From an uncultured Saprospiraceae bacterium (GTDB lineage Bacteria; Bacteroidota; Bacteroidia; Chitinophagales; Saprospiraceae): 32,459 nucleotides of DNA. Position 1 is the stretch's first letter. The number at the start of each line of letters is the position of its first letter. The notes under the pieces are model-generated. The model was not told the origin of the DNA and did not search any database. It was given only the letters and a program-made list of their open reading frames with translations. Made by a program: the position numbers and the translations under genes. Location of the stretch: contig CAKZUV010000110.1 of NCBI GenBank assembly GCA_937921555.1, positions 1 through 32,459 of the forward strand, written 5' to 3'. Shown in pieces: positions 23 through 24,364 of the stretch.

Positions 23-892
23 ATGGCCAAAAAGCGTAAAATTAAAGACGAAAAAAACAACGATTCCGGGAATATTTATGACCGTATTTTCCGTGAAAAT
101 GCACGAACTATTTTTATTCCATTAATCCAGTTTCAATTAAATATCGATATCACCAGATACGAAGCACTGGAATTTAAAATGTCCAGAACCCGGGAAAGGG
201 AGGTAGATTTTTTATATAAAATTTTTGACAAAAATGGGAAGGTGAGTATCCTTCATTTAGAATTCCAAACGAAGAACGATCCGGCAATGCTCGCCCGAAT
301 TCAGGAGTACCACGCTTTAATTTATCGAAAACACAAGTTTCCTATTCGTCATATTGTGATTTATCTCGGTAAGCGAAAATCTTCCATGAAAAATAAACTG
401 GAACCAGACCACGTTTTCTCTGGTTTTGATATTATAAATATCACTGCGATTGATCCCAATCAACTGATCAGCACCCAAATTCCGGAAATGGTGATTATGG
501 CTTTGTTAGCTGATTTCAAAAAAGATAAACTGGAAAAAATACTGCACGATATTGTCGAAAGGTTAAAAAGTCTGGTCGATTCCAAGGATTCAATGTCTAA
601 ATACATCAACCAATTGTTAATCTTAGCAAGAATTCGTAACTTACAAATGATTATTTCACAAAAATTAGATGATATGCCTATTTCATATAACGTCGAAAAA
701 GACGGGTTATACCTAAGGGGAGTTGAGAAAGGAATTCAGAAGGGAATTGAAAAAGGGGTCAATAAAGGAATTGCCCAATCTGTCTGGAAGCTTTTTAGCA
801 GAGGTAATTCAGTTGAGTTCATTGCAAATAATCTTGAATTAACTATCCAACAAGTGAAGCAATACATTCAGGACTGGGAAGCTAAATCCTGA
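23..892 (+). CDS. Rpn family recombination-promoting nuclease / putative transposase (PD-(D/E)XK)
   Basis: A 289-residue protein of the Rpn / PD-(D/E)XK nuclease-transposase family. The nuclease core is visible as D62 in REVDFLYKI, then E80 and Q82 in LHLEFQTK, the D...ExQ pattern of the family, followed by the helix ARIQEYHALIYRKH. The C-terminus (from about residue 209) has a run of four-residue repeats, GIQKGIEKGVNKGI, then a small helical tail ending QYIQDWEAKS. Family knowledge: E. coli Rpn proteins are DNA endonucleases whose C-terminal part is also made separately from an internal start and acts as an antitoxin. Here M209 and M218 are in-frame ATG codons at that boundary. The same C-terminal segment follows twice more as separate ORFs. 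The promoter is outside or at the window edge. The family call is firm; the role in recombination or phage defence is inferred. Confidence 0.88.
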   Translation: MAKKRKIKDEKNNDSGNIYDRIFRENARTIFIPLIQFQLNIDITRYEALEFKMSRTREREVDFLYKIFDKNGKVSILHLEFQTKNDPAMLARIQEYHALIYRKHKFPIRHIVIYLGKRKSSMKNKLEPDHVFSGFDIINITAIDPNQLISTQIPEMVIMALLADFKKDKLEKILHDIVERLKSLVDSKDSMSKYINQLLILARIRNLQMIISQKLDDMPISYNVEKDGLYLRGVEKGIQKGIEKGVNKGIAQSVWKLFSRGNSVEFIANNLELTIQQVKQYIQDWEAKS

Positions 893-1361
893 TTATTTCA
901 CAAAATTTAGATGATATGCCTATTTCATATAACGTCGAAAAGGACGGGTTATACCTAAGGGGAGTTGAGAAAGGAATTGAGAAGGGGATTGAAAAGGGAA
1001 TCGCCCAATCTGTTTGGAATCTTTACAATGGTGGCTTTTCGATTCAGGTAATTGCAAAAAATCTTAACCTTAGTATCCAACAAGTGGAGCAATACATCCA
1101 GGACTGGGAAGCCAAATCCTGATTATTTCACAAAAATTAGATGATATGCCTATTTCATATAACGTCGAAAAAGACGGGTTATACCTAAGGGGAGTTGAGA
1201 AAGGAATACAAAAGGGAATTGAGAAGGGAATTGAAAAGGGAATCGCCCAATCCGTTTGGAATTTTTATAATGGTGGCTTTTCGATTCAAGTAATTGCAAA
1301 AAACCTTAACCTTACTACCCAACAAGTGAAACAATACATCCAGGACTGGGAAGCCAAATCC
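648..1361 (+). repeat. Three tandem copies of the Rpn C-terminal cassette
   Basis: Three head-to-tail units at 648-889, 890-1119 and 1120-1361, each beginning TGATTATTTCACAAAA and ending GAAGC(T/C)AAATCC. Lengths are 242, 230 and 242 bp; the 12-bp difference equals one four-residue repeat. In unit 1 the leading TGA is the last three bases of AATGA in the parent reading frame (codon M209). In units 2 and 3 the same TGA falls in frame as the stop codon of the preceding ORF, which fixes the direction and register of the duplication. Confidence 0.9.
916..1122 (+). CDS. Free-standing copy of the Rpn C-terminal domain (RpnS-like), copy 2
   Basis: A 68-residue ORF that repeats the C-terminal domain of the Rpn gene just upstream. 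It starts at an ATG equivalent to M218 of that protein (MPISYNVEKDGLYLRGVEKG) and ends in the same QYIQDWEAKS tail. It has three KGI-type four-residue repeats against four in the parent gene. The middle (SVWNLYNGGFSIQVIAKNLNL) differs from the parent's SVWKLFSRGNSVEFIANNLEL, while both flanks are almost identical. It lies 23 bp after the parent stop and no nuclease core precedes it. It could be a translated antitoxin-like fragment, a cassette for recombination into the full gene, or an unexpressed duplicate. The reading frame is intact, which favours function. No clear ribosome binding site is visible, but such sites are weak in Bacteroidota. Confidence 0.6.
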   Translation: MPISYNVEKDGLYLRGVEKGIEKGIEKGIAQSVWNLYNGGFSIQVIAKNLNLSIQQVEQYIQDWEAKS

Positions 1362-1364
1362 TAA
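1146..1364 (+). CDS. Free-standing copy of the Rpn C-terminal domain (RpnS-like), copy 3
   Basis: A 72-residue ORF, third tandem copy of the Rpn C-terminal domain. It begins at the same ATG as copy 2 and carries four KGI-type repeats (GIQKGIEKGIEKGIAQ). Its core (SVWNFYNGGFSIQVIAKNLNL) resembles copy 2 rather than the parent gene. It ends with TAA, whereas the parent and copy 2 end with TGA. That TGA is part of the junction sequence TGATTATTTCAC, so copy 3 probably keeps the original gene end. The intact frame and length suggest selection, but expression cannot be judged from sequence. Confidence 0.6.
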   Translation: MPISYNVEKDGLYLRGVEKGIQKGIEKGIEKGIAQSVWNFYNGGFSIQVIAKNLNLTTQQVKQYIQDWEAKS

Positions 1365-1493: not shown

Positions 1494-1727
1494 ATGATTT
1501 CTCTTAATATGCTAAAAAAGGGTACCCTCGCCAGAGTTGAACTACTCCCCAGCGACGCGGAAGCCCGCCAATTACTGCTTACCCACGGGATTCATCCCGG
1601 TAAGCGGATTAGACTTTTACAATCCTTCCCTTCGCAGGATCTTTCTCTGATTACTTGCAACGGAAGAAAATTAGCCATCCGTCGGGCTGATATGGCCTCG
1701 ATTCAGGTAGAACCAATGAATGAGTAA
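1494..1727 (+). CDS. feoA: FeoA family protein, ferrous iron transport accessory
   Basis: A 77-residue SH3-like FeoA protein. It has the family pattern of a start-proximal beta strand (ARVELLPSDAEA), then LLTHGIHPGKRIRLLQSFPSQDLSLITCNGRKLAIRRADMASIQVEP. In family terms the HGI(H)PGxxI turn and the late LAIR...A strand are diagnostic. FeoA binds the cytoplasmic side of FeoB and supports Fe(II) import. Its stop overlaps the feoB start by 8 bp (ATG at 1720), so the two are translationally coupled. The N-terminus MISLNML fits the expected length, so no other start is needed. Confidence 0.88.
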   Translation: MISLNMLKKGTLARVELLPSDAEARQLLLTHGIHPGKRIRLLQSFPSQDLSLITCNGRKLAIRRADMASIQVEPMNE

Positions 1728-23500: not shown

Positions 23501-24364
23501 TTAAAGATCTTTAATCTCCTCGGATGTAAGATTTGTGTATTTAATGATCTTCTCTATTGGTTCGCCATTATCTTTCATTTCTTTTGCCATTTTGAGGGTT
23601 ACCTTTTCGGTTACTTCTTCAATTACTTCCTCAGCCATTTTCCGCTTTTCCTCTTGCATCATAGCAATAATGGAAGCATTTTTGGCCATCATCATTTCGT
23701 AATGCATTCGCTGTTCAGCGGTCATTTTACTCTTATCCAATTTTTTCATGGCTTGTTCGATCCAATCTTCAGTTAAGAATTTTGGTAATTGATCTGCCCC
23801 TTCAATATTTTCGAGGTTCTTCATGACATAAATTAGTTTATCTAAATCTGATCGAATTTCAGTTTCTGCTTTATCAAATTTATCAATTTCTACAATGATA
23901 TGTGTAATCTGGTCGTCTAATTCTTCTCCTTTTTGGTTCATCAGCCTACCAAAATGGTAATATTCAGTTGATTTGGGGAAAATTCCTTTGGCTAAAAAGC
24001 CAATACAATATATTTGATGAAGATTATCAAATTGGTAATTTCCCTTTTCTACCATGGTATTGAACCGTTGAAAAGCATAAAATTTCGCTCTCTGAATGAA
24101 ATATTTATAATAACCTAACTGCATTTCAACAATAAAGGTTCTGTTTTTTTCATCTATACAAAGTAAATCGAAAACCCCGCCTCTCGAATCTTTGGTAATT
24201 CCTGAGAATTCGTTTCGCAAAATCTGAACATGTCTGATCCGTCTTTTACTTTGGATGAGTGCTTGCAATGCCTTTCTTAAAAATAAAGAATTTGACTCAT
24301 CCGCAAAAGCAACTTTAAAACCATAATCTGATAGTAAAGAGATAAACTTCTTTTCGTTTTCCAT
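23501..24364 (-). CDS. Rpn family recombination-promoting nuclease / putative transposase (second, divergent)
   Basis: A 287-residue protein of the PD-(D/E)XK nuclease-transposase family (PDDEXK_12-like). It starts FISLLSDYGFKVAFADESN, typical of the group. The nuclease core is D66 in GGVFDLLCIDE, then E80 and Q82 in TFIVEMQLGYYKYFIQRAKFYA. The middle (KGIFPKSTEYYHFGRLMNQKGEELDDQITHIIVE) is the family's conserved extension. The C-terminus is helical, with a coiled-coil-like EEVIEEVTEKVTLKMAKEMKDNG and a small tail. Several Met codons at the domain boundary (MTAEQRMHYEMMMAKN) could serve as internal starts for a short product as in E. coli Rpn. It belongs to a different subgroup from the first Rpn gene of this window. 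It is divergent from the methyltransferase gene. Confidence 0.88.
   Translation of the reverse strand: MENEKKFISLLSDYGFKVAFADESNSLFLRKALQALIQSKRRIRHVQILRNEFSGITKDSRGGVFDLLCIDEKNRTFIVEMQLGYYKYFIQRAKFYAFQRFNTMVEKGNYQFDNLHQIYCIGFLAKGIFPKSTEYYHFGRLMNQKGEELDDQITHIIVEIDKFDKAETEIRSDLDKLIYVMKNLENIEGADQLPKFLTEDWIEQAMKKLDKSKMTAEQRMHYEMMMAKNASIIAMMQEEKRKMAEEVIEEVTEKVTLKMAKEMKDNGEPIEKIIKYTNLTSEEIKDL

Follow-up and report, generated by a model that had tools for sequence, protein, structure and literature searches.

A window of 32,459 nucleotides (nt), the whole stretch of DNA analysed here (contig CAKZUV010000110.1 of an uncultured Saprospiraceae bacterium), begins with a gene for an Rpn-like PD-(D/E)XK nuclease that is followed by two small genes related to its own C-terminal tail. 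Judged from sequence, this appears, by a modest preponderance of the evidence, to be an RpnL/RpnS-like locus, in which an array of free-standing RpnS-type antitoxins would double as a set of exchangeable tails. All its features lie on the + strand. The full-length gene (23..892) encodes 289 amino acids (aa) from ATG 23, with predicted catalytic residues D62, E80 and Q82, and contains an intragenic RpnS-like tail of 72 codons (674..892) with a candidate internal start at ATG 674 and the four-residue repeats VEKG IQKG IEKG VNKG. Two intact open reading frames (ORFs) of 68 and 72 aa behind an Rpn gene had been reported in a preliminary description, and ORFs at 23-892, 916-1122 and 1146-1364 confirmed this. 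According to the repeat map, cassette 1 (916..1122, 68 aa) is one 4-aa repeat shorter than the tail of the full gene, and cassette 2 (1146..1364, 72 aa) equals that tail in repeat length; both carry a helix-turn-helix core of type B, distinct from the type-A core of the full gene.

The cassettes are part of a tandem repeat that is far beyond chance: Tandem Repeats Finder reported 3.0 copies with a period of 242 nt at 648-1362 (85% matches, score 947). Repeat analysis placed the first copy of the 242-nt unit within the full gene (648..889), the second, of 230 nt and with one 12-nt repeat fewer, at 890..1119, and the third at 1120..1361. The unit starts at 648 (TGATTATTTCAC...), 26 nt upstream of ATG 674, and ends at the stop; the stop codon of each preceding copy is built from the first bases of the next unit. 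The stop-to-ATG gaps are 23 and 23 nt, and the full gene, cassette 1 and cassette 2 use three different reading frames. The nuclease start codon is only 22 nt from the contig start in this 403-contig assembly, and the promoter thus lies outside the contig.

Sequence comparison further indicated that the cassettes are not plain copies, since they have the 5' half of the gene's tail in common and differ in the predicted helix-turn-helix core. The units of the full gene and cassette 2 are identical at 648-735 (88 nt), and the two tails displayed 2 mismatches in the left 75 nt and 37 in the right 141 nt. Differences concentrated in the type-A core, a candidate exchange tract at 750..842 (33 of 93 positions, versus 7 of 152 in the flanks), and none of 500 codon-block shuffles was as extreme; after 842, 5 of 50 bases differed. 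The earlier statement that the ORFs copy only the C-terminal domain therefore stands in that both are tail copies, but not as regards their content, the core being different and cassette 1 one 4-aa repeat short. Over the central 66 nt of the core, the window full gene shared more with tails from other genomes of its genus (82% identity with that of G004 and 76% with one G002 cassette) than with its own cassettes (only 64-67%). The latter were 86% identical to a G006 remnant and 77% to the G005 full-gene tail, and flank identity among the window copies was 94-100% in the pieces compared. A tree built from the 108-nt cores of 15 tails favoured separate origins of the window tails; 108 nt being too few, the mosaic claim rests on mismatch clustering and not on the tree.

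Similar mosaics were encountered elsewhere in Bacteroidia. Among ten loci with a complete pair, designated here by genome and contig, mismatches between full gene and cassette were clustered in eight (codon shuffle, uncorrected P <0.05): the window, G000:C311 (same genome), G009:C47, G009:C14, G009:C55, G136:C87, G324:C35 and G217:C43. Six of the eight had alike 5' halves and divergent 3' (helix-turn-helix) halves, synonymous sites included. From left to right, mismatches rose from 1/99 to 40/90 in G009:C14, from 2/147 to 29/87 in G009:C55 and from 0/231 to 8/45 in G136:C87, and synonymous sites followed the same pattern in these three loci and in the window. Protein constraint is no explanation for the G009:C14 mosaic, because the synonymous differences there affected 0 of 19 left-hand sites and 14.5 of the 18 right-hand ones. 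In G324:C35, the full gene and its three cassettes carry tail types 1, 2, 1 and 3 on closely similar 5' halves; two of the cassettes were significantly mosaic and the remaining one shares the tail type of the full gene. Outside the ten-locus count were G159:C50 (tails of 106 versus 66 aa), G005:C67 (cut cassette, P 0.0495) and G002:C112, which has no full gene and whose first two cassettes gave P 0.017 in the shuffle test.

E. coli served as a control, with eleven loci inspected (K-12 and ten picked strains). In K-12, ypaA (L192 5817-6002) lies 12 nt downstream of rpnE on the same strand, and the two displayed 5/116 mismatches followed by 21/52, a pattern with which the three other strains tested agreed. 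All six two-copy strains had the rpnE-type tail on the nuclease and the ypaA-type tail downstream, and all five one-copy strains had the ypaA-type tail on the nuclease. Across 5426 E. coli genomes, the ypaA-type tail occurred in 5363 and the K-12 rpnE-type tail in 3101, at least 2262 genomes having the ypaA-type tail only. Of 60 rows distributed along the ranking, 38 had the ypaA-type tail in a separate small ORF and 22 had it within rpnE itself; the rpnE-type tail stood under a full gene in 60 of 60 spread rows. Depending on the E. coli strain, one and the same tail is thus either a free cassette or part of the nuclease itself. Together with the mosaic halves, this spoke for the earlier suggestion of an array that stores variant C-termini. 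A fusion of the N-terminal domain with the downstream rpnS is mentioned in one sentence of Zhong 2023 (PMC10327210). RefSeq labels K-12 ypaA a pseudogene and rpnE inactive; in contrast to the former label, the YpaA protein was detected by tagging (Zhong 2023, PMC10327210).

Repeat length bears on what the cassettes might do. RpnS acts as an antitoxin, and RpnCS with one additional 4-aa repeat no longer counteracts RpnCLS, the reverse being also true (Zhong 2023, PMC10327210). In 15 complete Bacteroidia cassettes (G159:C50 included, G005:C67 not), the length of the repeat region matched that of the neighbouring nuclease in five (window cassette 2, G009:C14, G009:C55, G136:C87 and G324 cassette 2) and differed in ten, some differences not being multiples of four. 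Lengths were likewise unequal in 6/6 two-copy E. coli strains. An array that would merely raise the dose, extra RpnS lowering basal toxicity and the mosaics reflecting concerted evolution of a dimer half with drift of the other, is in our opinion unlikely. Such an array would account for the alike 5' halves in six of the eight mosaic loci, for stop-to-ATG gaps mostly below 50 nt and for the equal repeat length of window cassette 2 and full gene. Yet two thirds of the Bacteroidia cassettes and all six two-copy E. coli strains inspected show the kind of mismatch that stops neutralisation in RpnC, the clearest loci set tracts near synonymous saturation beside nearly unchanged ones, and one E. coli tail type is found on either gene. 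The simple antitoxin-dose idea of the preliminary description is weakened by the same mismatches.

Under the reading preferred here, that of antitoxins doubling as exchangeable tails, the internal translation unit for a small C-terminal protein would have been copied twice downstream, giving an operon-like tandem array in which each cassette would comprise an internal start, a helix-1 half with the 4-aa repeats and a helix-turn-helix module. The cassettes would be translated and act as RpnS-type antitoxins. We propose that cassette 2, with its matching repeat length, binds and restrains the window nuclease, and that cassette 1, one repeat short, restrains it poorly or not at all. Recombination through the common 5' half and repeat region would swap helix-turn-helix modules between full gene and cassettes, and the array would serve as a reservoir of alternative tails. 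Translation, antitoxin action and the direction of exchange are what we infer, as is phage pressure as the driver.

The boundary of the copied unit is in line with the first of these steps. In 16 of 16 cassettes (E. coli ypaA and 15 from Bacteroidia, including one cut short where its contig ends), recognisable homology to the respective full gene extended no more than 0-43 nt beyond the internal ATG in the upstream direction (13-43 nt for seven cassettes, 0-4 nt for nine), although 213-261 nuclease codons lay further up (73 in the contig-cut G142). Cassette ATGs were assigned by hand, at the Met-Pro in the main subfamily and by eye in G324 and G217. An internal Met-Pro was present at the tail start of the window gene and of 20/20 named full genes with a frame extending into the tail; in four further named loci, not counted in the 20, the frame stops short of it. 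Random duplications should often take in more of the nuclease, and the copied unit therefore looks like the internal translation unit.

The same boundary bears on another explanation, by which slippage at the repeat-rich 3' end yields decaying copies whose frames are open only because they are young. Decayed copies at the syntenic locus of G006 (start lost) and G003 (fragment) and the pseudogene label on K-12 ypaA would fit such debris. We nevertheless hold it to be improbable: recognisable copying starts at the internal ATG in 16/16 cases, YpaA protein was detected (Zhong 2023, PMC10327210), and no stop interrupted 38 of the 40 short-frame matches listed (139 aa or less; at least 12 of the 40 cut by contig ends). 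Moreover, the cassettes displayed a purifying-selection signature. The two window cassettes differ from each other by 11-12 nt, depending on the alignment, and by 4 aa (ratio of nonsynonymous to synonymous differences, pN/pS, 0.13), and neutral simulation gave as few amino acid changes in 0.1-1.7% of cases (P 0.001-0.017), according to transition bias. For a divergent third cassette orthologous between G002 and G004, the corresponding substitution ratio (dN/dS) was 0.22, only 8 of the amino acids being changed by 18 substitutions (P 0.009). The signature could also be imitated by gene conversion if the donor gene is under selection.

The layout is not restricted to the window. Cassette matches were obtained in 19/60 relatives (mostly metagenome-assembled genomes, MAGs, of uncultured Saprospiraceae), 75/199 family genomes and 19/395 class genomes; each set contains the window's own genome, the matches include full-gene tails, and 19/395 is a floor, the class scan having been run at an expect value (E) of 1e-5 with a subfamily-tuned profile. 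Loci were taken as found and are not a random draw. A full gene with two cassettes occurred in the window (G000:C110) and in G005:C150, and one with three in G324:C35, from another family of the same class. Single cassettes followed full genes in G000:C311, G009:C47, G009:C14, G009:C55, G136:C87, G217:C43 and G159:C50. That of G000:C311, a second paralogue in the window's own genome, is a free-standing tail frame that lies 175 nt downstream and encodes 64 aa, counted from its ATG. At two further loci the contig cuts one of the genes, namely the cassette of G005:C67, at the contig end, and the full gene of G142:C55. Spacings in G324:C35 were -4, 6 and -4 nt, two of the three junctions being ATGA overlaps, which suggests coupled translation. 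In G405:C73, which has frames of 349 and 104 aa, the self-similarity scan (full frame of at least 230 aa) returned the full gene but no cassette frame. The search of related genomes proposed in the preliminary description thus recovered the layout at another gene of the window's own genome, among its relatives and in a further family of Bacteroidia, and this recurrence excludes a degraded duplication confined to one strain. As to the integrity of frames in relatives, open frames with a purifying signature were found, but decayed copies occupy the locus in two of seven genus genomes.

Three further observations concern tails in these genomes. Of the 40 short-frame matches listed, at least 12 had a tail within which the contig ended (e.g. 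L044, L093, L133, L134, L152 and L157; no background rate was compared), which suggests that short-read assembly collapses or breaks longer arrays. In G000:C165 (L006 1480-2085), an intact tail follows a nuclease part from which the N-terminal portion is missing and which overlaps a longer frame, helicase-like by eye. G024 has two tail genes (L140 1820-2200 and L146 2100-2510), 127 and 137 codons long, that share the stretch MELIVINQMET ahead of the tail and have no more than a short remnant of the nuclease upstream; they are possibly dispersed orphan cassettes.

The syntenic locus, upstream of feoA, could be located in 7/7 genus genomes and revealed both persistence and loss. Besides the full gene and two cassettes of G000, it holds a full gene only in G001 and G005. 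G002 displays three intact cassettes, the third of divergent type, and no nuclease; in G004 the contig starts inside a tail that is followed by a divergent cassette as in G002. Away from this locus, G004:C352 carries an intact solo cassette. A search with nuclease parts found none beside the G002 or solo G004 cassettes, except for the short stretch bordering the internal start. Cassettes thus outlive the nuclease in one array and one solo case, yet decay in two other genomes. The G002 array and the solo cassette would be expected if cassettes gave protection from Rpn nucleases other than their neighbour, be these lost, sister or incoming alleles, in the way of immunity genes kept after toxin loss, and so would the repeat-region mismatch of two thirds of the cassettes with their neighbour. 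No matching foreign nuclease was identified, although no systematic search was made and incomplete MAGs may hide one; we give such orphan immunity little credence.

The assignment of the nuclease relies on remote similarity. Against TIGR01784 (NCBIfam, Rpn), the full protein scored 45.4 and the cassettes 31.3 and 34.7 bits (curated cut-off 52.1), and the full protein scored 13.6 against PF04754 (cut-off 21). Since both cut-offs were missed, the label "Rpn-like" is used instead of membership. A profile of 21 hand-chosen homologues aligned with E. coli RpnA/B/C/E over 205 columns spanning nuclease and tail (hhalign probability 80%, E 1.4e-5). The sequence displays a predicted PD-(D/E)XK active-site pattern (D ... 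E-x-Q), of which D62, E80 and Q82 were invariant in 21/21 aligned homologues and stood opposite D63, E82 and Q84 of RpnA in the profile alignment. According to an excerpt of Kingston 2017 (PMC5350276), the substitutions D63A, E82A and Q84K in RpnA each abolished all three overexpression phenotypes. A sequence search of the PDB with the full protein gave no match. The best matches of a fold search with the nuclease model included EndoMS, EcoO109I, BamHI, MspJI and Cap4, all of which we take to be PD-(D/E)XK enzymes, as well as unrelated proteins, and none in the PDB reached E 0.001.

The tail itself was predicted, in cassette 2, to form one long and two short helices (11-42, 47-54 and 58-71; predicted local distance difference test, pLDDT, 73.6). 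This model is in line with the three-helix bundle of RpnAS (Zhong 2023, PMC10327210). A predicted three-helix tail with 4-aa repeats of variable number is what characterises RpnS, and the earlier view of the cassettes as RpnS-like free-standing C-terminal genes was supported. A PDB search with the cassette profile returned a chain named CAP REPEAT (8vd6, 1.8e-21), here left uninterpreted, and general helix-turn-helix proteins; RpnAS (7TH0) was not among the PDB sequence matches listed. Family matches to helix-turn-helix domains, below cut-offs, and structural matches to the DNA-binding domains of DeoR, resolvase and IstA, all with E >0.1, could be taken to mean that the cassettes are DNA-binding regulators of their operon, with the helix-turn-helix as working part. 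We regard this as highly improbable, since in most mosaic loci it is the helix-turn-helix that varies and the helix-1 half that is kept; with the promoter outside the contig, no operator could be checked.

Several points weigh against antitoxins doubling as exchangeable tails. The window nuclease is Rpn-like without curated membership, and its structure model was weak (pLDDT 62.9). If the RpnC rule were general, the ten mismatched cassettes of 15 could not restrain their present neighbour. Among the mosaic loci, the orientation was reversed in G000:C311, and G217:C43 differed chiefly at the very start; the codon shuffle detected no significant mosaic in G005:C150 and G142:C55. The 108-nt tree did not reject a single clade for the three window tails (approximately unbiased test, AU, p 0.30). 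Where upstream homology is 0-4 nt, divergence could mask an older, longer copy, and short frames retaining more of the nuclease do occur away from full genes (G026:C605, G029:C93, G121:C6 and a second copy on G007:C31), although these were taken as truncated genes. At the feoA locus, G006 retains one decayed cassette that has lost its start and G003 a tail fragment only. Finally, most genomes are fragmented assemblies, several with contigs ending inside tails, and array lengths are minima.

The layout has known counterparts, and the remark of the preliminary description that no example had been described was wrong: downstream rpnS genes follow rpnE (ypaA) and rpnC in E. coli, and arrays of rpn genes and downstream copies occur (Zhong 2023, PMC10327210). 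The pairs rpnE-ypaA (rpnES) and rpnC-rpnCS resemble the window locus in that a full rpn gene is followed on the same strand by a separate RpnS tail copy from the internal start, and in their variable 4-aa repeats; rpnE-ypaA does so also in its 5'-alike, 3'-divergent mosaic. They differ by having one cassette instead of two or three and a nuclease of another, well recognised subfamily. Tandem cassettes, mosaic tails and a nuclease-less cassette array are absent from the main text of Zhong 2023 (PMC10327210). As far as searched, a single downstream copy was thus already known, and arrays of two or three cassettes, mosaics in two phyla and the nuclease-less array are apparently not found in open-licence literature.

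As regards mode of action, the nearest analogy is provided by the orphan cdiA-CT/cdiI arrays of contact-dependent growth inhibition (CDI) and Rhs systems. In the excerpts of Poole 2011 (PMC3150448), truncated copies likewise lie behind a main gene, which they resemble as far as a junction and not beyond it, and an orphan tail can be joined to cdiA by a deletion. CDI tails are secreted toxins with separate immunity genes, whereas here the tail itself is the presumed antitoxin. Inspection by eye of the window frames of at least 90 aa found no secreted polymorphic toxin, immunity or export genes; the window locus would therefore work like CDI orphan arrays without being a member. In EcoR124I/II, the number of 4-aa repeats also sets specificity (as described in Zhong 2023, PMC10327210); it concerns DNA-recognition spacing there and a presumed protein-protein register here, and no cassette array is named.

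A more general scheme can be advanced tentatively, as a possibility that we do not yet favour. The tail would be the targeting or oligomerisation domain of the nuclease and, when made alone, its antitoxin; arrays would store tails, and recombination via the common 5' half would load a new tail, changing toxin behaviour and matching antitoxin in one step. This would be CDI-like tail swapping by an intracellular defence nuclease, in Gammaproteobacteria as well as Bacteroidota. How the hypervariable RpnS tails come to vary with toxin and antitoxin still matched was left open (Zhong 2023, PMC10327210). Arrays of separately encoded tails, together with one tail type that sits on the nuclease or downstream of it depending on the strain, offer a concrete route for matched variation, and the question becomes testable in E. 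coli rpnE/ypaA and in Bacteroidota. From the repeat-length mismatch one would further expect that many downstream cassettes do not serve as antitoxins of the nuclease they now adjoin.

Cassettes carried by phages for counter-defence were also considered and rejected: with one motif, 23 stretches on viral contigs were matched and none was confirmed, and no match was obtained in 50,697 phage records. Elsewhere in the window, a second Rpn-type gene of another subfamily (23501-24364, - strand) matched PF12784 (PDDEXK_2, E 5e-36) and TIGR01784, the latter at 74.8 bits and above cut-off. Downstream of the array lies feoA (1494..1727, +, PF04023), which served only as syntenic anchor and is present in 7/7 genus genomes. 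Directly before it, a conserved element with complementary arms (1440-1493, GCCTATTT ... AAATAGGC), also found in 7/7 genus genomes, is possibly an iron-responsive operator or a terminator of the array. In E. coli K-12 (3540000-3548000), rpnA adjoins the feoABC operon, as the window gene adjoins feoAB; this shared neighbourhood is probably a coincidence.

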